Shown piece by piece: positions 53,571-55,080 of a DNA stretch of 55,080 nucleotides. The translations under genes and the position numbers were made by a program. The notes under the pieces are model-generated. The model was not told the origin of the DNA. It did not search any database and saw nothing but the letters and a program-made list of their open reading frames with translations. Within the stretch, counting starts at the first letter, position 1; each line of letters opens with the position of its first letter. Origin of the DNA: Candidatus Poribacteria bacterium (GTDB lineage Bacteria; Poribacteria; WGA-4E; WGA-3G); assembly GCA_022822085.1 (NCBI GenBank), contig JAJECK010000020.1, positions 1 to 55,080 on the forward strand, given 5' to 3'.

Positions 53571-53841
53571 ATCTGTTCCTCCGTTTTATTGTTTTTTCAA
53601 GATAATACGTTCCTTTTGTCTTCTATTTCCGTGGACATCTGATTATATCCTATCATAAAAGGATACCGAATTAAAGCGTAATTGTCAACGTTAAATTCAT
53701 TAGACATTATATAAAGGTTGCTATATAAAGGTTGCTTTTAGTTGAAAAGCGAATTTAGCTTTAGTTGTCAATATATGTGTGTGTATGTTAGAATATATCA
53801 ACAACCTATCAATAAGTATCTCACAAAGAGCGATCCGACAG
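53571..53841. promoter_or_regulatory. Divergent region with short tandem repeat
   Basis: This 271-base gap separates the hydroxylase operon (minus) from the HTH gene (plus). It holds a hairpin (TATCCT, TCATA, AGGATA around 53646-53665) and two tandem copies of TATATAAAGGTTGCT at 53708-53722 and 53722-53736, period 14. The tandem units look like operator or iteron sites. No consensus promoter stands out. Confidence 0.5.
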
Positions 53842-54123
53842 ATGAACACAACCAACATGGGTAGACCGCGTAAGTTGACGACCAAAGCAGTGCAACAGGC
53901 AGCCGTAGACCTCAGAAATGGTATGACGTGGAAAGCGTTGAGTCTCAAATATGAGTGTGCGATCAATACGATTCGCTATAGTTTGGCGGAGTATAGTGAT
54001 GAGTTTGCCCCGACCGTCTCGATGCTGCGTCCGCAAGTGGAACAGCAACTGAATGCGCTGCAATCCGATATGGATAATATCAAAAAGGCATTGAAGAAAC
54101 GATTTAACCTGCACGTTGGGTAA
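53842..54123 (+). CDS. Small helix-turn-helix protein
   Basis: A 93-residue protein starting MNTTNMGRPRKLTTKAVQQA. It resembles the C-terminal DNA-binding part of Hin-type resolvases (GRPRKLT, then AVDLRNGMTWKALSLKYECA with the turn, INTIRYSL), without the catalytic domain. A C-terminal helix is Lys-rich. It could bind the tandem repeats just upstream, or the palindrome downstream; that is a guess. The ATG at 53842 has only a weak ribosome binding site. Confidence 0.65.
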   Translation: MNTTNMGRPRKLTTKAVQQAAVDLRNGMTWKALSLKYECAINTIRYSLAEYSDEFAPTVSMLRPQVEQQLNALQSDMDNIKKALKKRFNLHVG

Positions 54124-54243
54124 CTCTCGCGGCGTTGCCTATTTGTCTGCACGCCCGCTCAATCCGTCCAATCCGTGTGATATAGATAGATATATATAAA
54201 CCCTTGCCCCTCTCTCAAAAATGCGTCACAAGTCCATCTGAAC

Positions 54244-54300
54244 ATTATTTAATGATATATCATTAAATAATTTGACACAAAAATGCAAAAGATGTATAAT
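54244..54300 (+). promoter_or_regulatory. 28-base perfect palindrome abutting a consensus promoter
   Basis: The palindrome spans 54244-54271: half-site ATTATTTAATGATA and its exact complement. TTGACA follows at once (54272-54277), then a 17-base spacer and TATAAT (54295-54300). Both boxes match the sigma-70 consensus exactly. The palindrome, immediately upstream of -35, is well placed for an activator or a repressor dimer. Transcription would start near 54307 toward the structured segment. Confidence 0.8.
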
Positions 54301-54306
54301 AGGGAC

Positions 54307-54400
54307 AAGGTGTTAGAACTGTTCGGAATGCGTGTATAACACCGGGGCACGCAACCCCCTTGTGGGGGCGCGCCGATTGTGGTGAAATGGTTTATCCACT
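54307..54400 (+). ncRNA. Candidate structured RNA or 5' leader
   Basis: After the promoter three hairpins follow: GGTGTTA/TAACACC (54309-54315 with 54337-54343), CCCCC/GGGGG with loop TTGT (54355-54359 with 54364-54368, GC-rich outer bases on both sides), and GTGG/CCAC (54379-54382 with 54396-54399). This GC-rich patch stands out from the AT-rich surroundings. It could be a free small RNA or a leader of the secreted-protein gene about 300 bases downstream. It does not match a riboswitch class I know. Confidence 0.45.
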
Positions 54401-54603
54401 CTCAGCGCGTAGCCATGCCATAATACTACTATGACAGGACTGTTTTCATAATAACAGATGCACAAGCTTCTGTATATAGAGAACCAACGAGCCCAAAGGA
54501 TAGAGTTGTCAGCAACACATCTTTTTCAGTCCTCTTGCAAACCTCTCCTTTGGAAGCTGTCAATAATTTGTAATTTGATAGATAAATAATAAGGAGAAAA
54601 TCA

Positions 54604-55080
54604 ATGTTCATGAAACAAAAGTCGATTCTCATCACAGCAGTCCTCGCTGCGTTGCTGTGCGTAAGTTTTGTTAATAGTAGTGATGCGGCATCTATAACGT
54701 CTCTGTCTGCCTATACAACTTATGATTGGGGATCTGGTGGGTACGTCGACGCATCTCTGACAACGGATGCAGACATATACGTTATAGACTGGTATATAGA
54801 CGATACGTATCTAAAGACAACTTTTCACTATCACTTTCCCACGCGATCCGTCTATGTCTCCGTGGCACCCGGACCGGTGAGATTAAAGGTGTAAAGTATG
54901 AGATAAAGGCAGTTGCGTGGTTCTCGGAGAATAATAATCATGTCTCTGATATCGAGACGGACACAGTGCGGATGTTTAAACCCGTCTGGTTGTATGGAGT
55001 AGGCGAAAGGACGGGTGCCTGGGGATACGCAGAGATTTCAAAGCTCTACTATAATGGCACGCATATTATTATGGATTCTA
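54604..55080 (+). pseudogene. Secreted protein gene, frameshifted and cut by the right edge
   Basis: It starts at an ATG with AAGGAG 8 bases upstream and encodes a signal peptide (KSILITAVLAALLCVSFVNS), then a beta-rich secreted domain (DAASITSLSAYTTYDWGSGG). Frame 1 stops at 54894, but from about 54865 another frame continues open to the window edge: GEIKGVKYEIKAVAWFSENN, later ERTGAWGYAEISKLYYNGTH. One base inserted at GTG-GCACCCGG (giving GTG-GGC-ACC-CGG) would join them as VSVGTRTGEIKG. Function unknown; the pattern suggests a repeated surface domain. It is a pseudogene unless the shift is a sequencing error. Confidence 0.6.

Follow-up and report, generated by a model that had tools for sequence, protein, structure and literature searches.

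Translational riboswitches, orphan candidates among them, are the closest described systems to the RNA considered here. They lie in 5′ leaders, possess a conserved and covarying core, hide or free a Shine–Dalgarno (SD) site by means of mutually exclusive helices, and can occur in several copies per genome before different genes. These features recurred, the exclusive helices as a prediction, in a leader RNA encoded near the end of the window, the 55,080 nt stretch of Candidatus Poribacteria DNA that was analysed; it differed in lacking an Rfam match, in having a core larger than most, and in preceding genes that hint at no metabolite. The c-di-GMP riboswitches (GEMM) are numerous in individual genomes and often precede genes whose products are secreted or lie at the surface, and the leader RNA resembles them in being multi-copy and in preceding exported-protein genes. 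GEMM RNAs, however, are about 85 nt long with a signature of their own, and no GEMM match to the leader RNA was obtained at the gathering score or at E ≤10. In size and strong structure the leader RNA recalls OLE, ROOL, GOLLD, raiA and HEARO, from which it is distinguished by the lack of any Rfam match and by an extension into the next gene's ribosome-binding site.

The family member in the window occupies 54307–54561 (about 250 nt) and belongs to subfamily A, one of those labelled A to D. There were 10 clear matches in this genome, where BLAST of the region also revealed diverged copies elsewhere, and 13 of 60 relatives, all 13 of the same genus, had matches at about 67–76 % identity. In the family-level clade to which this genome belongs, the covariance model (CM) R1 detected the family in 55 of 59 genomes (1–16 copies each), representing three of four genera; 26 genomes from elsewhere in the phylum gave no hit under strict filters, by which weak matches can be lost. 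An exact pattern specific to subfamily A, scanned against one genome per species (84,980 species, a set in which records near the window's genome may be left out), returned 22 loci, exclusively in Poribacteria. The whole window gave no Rfam family at the gathering score, a search to E 10 produced only chance matches (E ≥3), and no tRNA or tmRNA was found. Comparison of the copies establishes a real and apparently undescribed family of cis-acting leader RNAs, so far found only in one family of sponge-dwelling Poribacteria. One locus (L124) carries two RNA copies 1.6 kb apart, separated by a gene for an ankyrin-repeat protein.

All elements of the RNA lie on the + strand. The predicted start and P1/P1a domain (54307–54343) pair GGTGT (54309–54313) with ACACC (54339–54343), and the compensatory versions GGTGT/ACACC, GGCGT/ACGCC and GGCAT/ATGCC were found among the copies. 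In five copies from genus g2 (L083, L086, L118, L120 and L121) the P1 domain is swapped for another hairpin (AAGGCTTTGAAAGCAC..) and the core is retained. This multi-branched core (54345–54494), derived from alignments of 28 sequences, 95 CM-fitted rows and 82 structure-blind sequences, is closed by P2 (GGGC 54345–54348/GCCC 54491–54494), which encloses a CCCC/GGGG hairpin (54356–54367), P3 (GCGCGC/GCGCGT, 54368–54410), P4 (TGCCATA..TATGACA with a hypervariable loop, 54411–54441) and P5 (54442–54485). The P4 loop (54423–54429 in the window; CATA-N7-TATG) varies between copies even within one genome, the hairpin being otherwise near-invariant. The 5′ strand of P6, CCAAAGGA (54493–54500), pairs with 54546–54553 and covaries across subfamilies; its partner lies in the switch strand TCTCCTTTGG (54544–54553), which is both the P6 3′ strand and an anti-SD sequence. 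After P6 comes a conserved CTGTC (54557–54561), which here forms the 5′ arm of a CTGTCAA/TTGATAG hairpin (54557–54581), followed by the SD site AAGGAGA (54591–54597), predicted to pair with 54544–54550 in the off state. The three 5′ hairpins described in an earlier note on this DNA (the P1 stem at 54309–54343, with an inner stem within it, the CCCC/GGGG hairpin and P3) were all recovered. The structured part extends beyond the 54307–54400 of that note, reaching about 54561, or 54597 if pairing with the SD site is counted. The 298 nt leader was more stable than dinucleotide shuffles (z −2.68; 1/200 shuffles equally stable) in minimum-energy folding, a method blind to ligands, tertiary contacts and co-transcriptional folding.

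Compensatory changes in relatives, whose absence the earlier note had named as grounds for rejection, were looked for and found, and covariation was heavy. In a structure-blind MAFFT alignment of 28 copies, 95.9 % of the cells of a 56-pair model were paired, 13 pairs showed double changes, and there were 47 double-change cells compared with 12.5 in shuffles. In a second such alignment, which drew 82 copies from the different subfamilies and took its structure from the window copy by projection, 89 % of cells were paired (81 % when shuffled); double changes affected 33 pairs and 407 cells, compared with at most 28 and 173 after shuffling. Since the shuffles ignore relatedness, these figures are not probabilities; in slid-partner controls, in which relatedness was kept, paired cells dropped to 30–53 %. 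Values higher than those of the 82-copy alignment came from the CM-fitted alignment (95 rows), which is biased towards the model and takes in seven partial or antisense hits. A conserved structured core with compensatory changes, as expected of a riboswitch, is thereby established by comparison. A kissing interaction between the loops of P3 and P4, assessed visually in genus g2 copies, was dropped, as the loops were complementary in some copies and not in others.

Base-pairing selection across the whole core also bears on the idea that the RNA is a mobile or duplicating repeat, spreading together with genes and lacking a regulatory role. Such a repeat would account for the 1–16 copies per genome, for a decayed partial copy on contig C132, and for the site beside the neighbouring dehydrogenase gene, which is occupied in this genome and, by another subtype, in only one relative. 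Together with the pairing, the conservation of promoter spacing, of strand and of placement ahead of genes makes it improbable, as does the lack of matches in phage and plasmid collections (queried with the subfamily A sequence) and in viral contigs (queried with patterns from the two main subfamilies). For most of 16 relatives, similarity to the window breaks off near 53704, immediately upstream of the dehydrogenase gene, and the sequence that follows (53705–55080) varies between genomes. This region encodes a small, possibly DNA-binding protein (53842–54123; MNTTNMGRPRKLTTKAVQQAA..) with no Pfam family above the cut-off, and a DNA match to it was present on contig C309 of another genome (G013), about 2.2 kb from another RNA copy.

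The best promoter site in the region is a sigma-70 sequence on the + strand with a 12/12 match (54272–54300), consisting of TTGACA (54272–54277), a 17 nt spacer and TATAAT (54295–54300). Its −35 box is abutted by a palindrome, ATTATTTAATGATATATCATTAAATAAT (54244–54271, no strand assigned), which is perfect over 28 bp, so that the ideal promoter and adjoining palindrome of the earlier note both stand. The palindrome did not occur in 100 shuffles of the window, and the genome search which that note had proposed located it once in 5.63 Mb with up to three mismatches allowed. Within subfamily A, 15/27 copies had a promoter-like site with the −10 box ending 6 nt upstream of the RNA start. Inverted repeats of different sequence were found at the same place in other copies (L026, perfect 32 bp; L016, 12/14; L028, 9+9), and were absent from others; as only some copies carry one, the idea of a general operator of the RNA family was rejected. 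In subfamily A, inverted repeats abutting the −35 box had a mean score of 3.7, compared with 1.3 in control stretches (p 0.027), and outside it their enrichment was not significant. A copy-specific operator formed by the inverted repeat is possible, and is a weak part of the case.

The predicted transcription start lies 297 nt upstream of the next ATG (54604), and no + strand ORF of at least 60 aa was found at 54124–54604, in agreement with the gene-free interval of about 300 bases noted previously. The gene that follows (54604–55080, + strand), which starts behind AAGGAGA, encodes a protein with a signal peptide, which belongs to a family of secreted two-domain beta-sandwich proteins. Its frame is broken near 54866 and then cut by the contig end. 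The break amounts to one base relative to a paralogue (L091) that is otherwise nearly identical and lies at the end of contig C95. As the two contigs end at the same sequence, either a pseudogene or a repeat within which the assembly broke off may be involved. The RNA copy in the window scored 150 bits, compared with 163–201 for most of its subfamily, and because of this and the broken frame it may be decaying.

Comparison also establishes the position of the RNA before genes. It was a 5′ leader on the same strand in 27/27 assessable subfamily A, 9/9 C and 5/6 D copies; in subfamily B an ORF lay downstream of about two thirds of copies by the criterion used, and some copies had no clear gene nearby. 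All 27 assessable A copies preceded a gene with a strongly hydrophobic N-terminal export or anchor segment (control 29/66), these targets being secreted beta-sandwich proteins, N-terminally anchored coiled-coil proteins and some others. Those of C and D were mostly small membrane proteins, and at least 14 subfamily B loci lie before an N6_N4_Mtase-type gene. Pfam returned N6_N4_Mtase for the methyltransferase-type target and no informative family for the secreted type. The predicted structure of one beta-type target (mean pLDDT 75) had Ig-like beta-sandwich folds; the closest solved structures, including Vibrio cholerae RbmA and other Ig-like proteins, had low TM-scores (about 0.3), and as these matches are to a generic Ig-like beta-sandwich no function was inferred.

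The earlier choice between a small RNA and a long regulated leader could thus be narrowed, the leader being strongly favoured and a trans-acting small RNA not favoured. The large conserved core and its own promoter would suit a free structured RNA acting in trans, with incidental read-through into the next gene, as would four loci without an obvious gene close by (L074, L080, L093 and L103). This is nevertheless considered quite unlikely, because all 27 A copies precede a same-strand SD site and exported-protein gene, because no terminator-like site was found on the + strand between RNA and gene (54300–54604), and because pairing with the SD site is predicted for the RNA's 3′ end. A leader is also compatible with binding by a protein rather than a small molecule, for example in autoregulation by the gene product or by a shared regulator; one core is common to unrelated target genes, and the invariant P4 stem and CTGTC could be read by a protein. 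Against this, the target proteins are themselves unrelated (secreted beta-sandwich, coiled-coil and DNA methyltransferase), so that classical autoregulation would require one core to be recognised by many different proteins, and we regard the protein-bound leader as a less probable, although serious, alternative to the small-molecule leader.

How the leader could act on its gene is suggested by P6, formed by the strand after GCCC and the strand directly preceding CTGTC. The P6 sequence differs wholly between subfamilies and the pairing is retained, in versions as unrelated as CCCAAAGG/CCTTTGGG, CTATAGGG/CCCTATAG and CTACAGA/TCTGTAG; own partners gave a mean of 6.3 bp, compared with 4.9 when permuted (top of 5,000 permutations 5.6). 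In subfamily A, the P6 3′ strand TCTCCTTT (54544–54551 in the window) is also complementary to the downstream SD site (TCTCCTTT/AAAGGAGA), by up to 14 bp in L002. Part of this is expected, as TCTCCTTT resembles the anti-SD sequence of 16S rRNA, and the own-versus-swapped comparison was of modest significance (p 0.016); most weight therefore falls on subfamily B, where before the DNA methyltransferases the strand at the same place, ATAGTCCT, is complementary to AGGACTAT(G), an SD site plus start codon. Covarying P6 and this second complementarity are both established by comparing sequences. Mutually exclusive structures of this kind were found, by sequence and folding, in A and B; C and D showed none, their local pairings being of other kinds. 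The shared architecture in the unrelated sequences of A and B is the best argument for a switch.

Ensemble folding of 26 leaders placed the switch strand on the SD site with a mean probability of 0.77 (>0.7 in 21/26), and on P6 instead in a few; four leaders (L019, L025, L028 and L034) showed no preference for sequestration. For the window copy, folded as the full leader, the probabilities were 0.55 for SD pairing with 54544–54550 and 0.23 for P6. SD accessibility was 0.22 in leaders, compared with 0.42 in 66 control genes (p 1e-6). An SD site sequestered in the predicted ground state would also suit an RNA thermometer, in which heat melts the helix off the site, but thermometers do not need a conserved 190 nt core with near-invariant bases, and this explanation is very improbable.

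From comparison and folding, exclusive pairing of the P6 strand is thus well supported as a translation switch, and our best reading is of a new cis-acting leader RNA that would function in the manner of a translational (orphan) riboswitch, although we do not give it that name. With a probability of roughly two in three, 54307–54597 is a 5′ leader that switches translation of the gene at 54604 in this way. The leader would be transcribed from the promoter at 54272–54300 and would comprise a conserved core of about 190 nt (P1–P5) followed by an expression platform, in which TCTCCTTT can pair in either of two mutually exclusive ways. Pairing with CCAAAGGA, at the base of the core (P6), would leave the SD site free and the gene translated; pairing with AAGGAGA would hide the site and turn translation off, the choice between the two helices depending on the state of the core. 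We infer transcription, switching in cells, this direction of the switch and its drive by a bound signal, which is most likely a small molecule, as in an orphan riboswitch, and possibly a protein. More speculatively, and somewhat against the odds, the family may form a novel class of riboswitch, responding to a signal particular to sponge-symbiont life (a host or community compound) and setting with one fold the output of exported proteins and, in a sister genus, of DNA methyltransferases; more remotely, it may be an RNA tag by which exported-protein messages are also steered to the membrane.

No regulatory RNA of this size was found for Poribacteria in a literature search, within whose scope the family, which has no Rfam match and reaches 16 copies in a genome, would be the first described. 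The family would join genes of unknown function in one regulon, making them jointly testable, and the reuse of the P6 strand as an anti-SD sequence in two subfamilies is a ready-made test of expression-platform evolution. If the leaders are ligand-driven, the family points to a signal used inside sponges.
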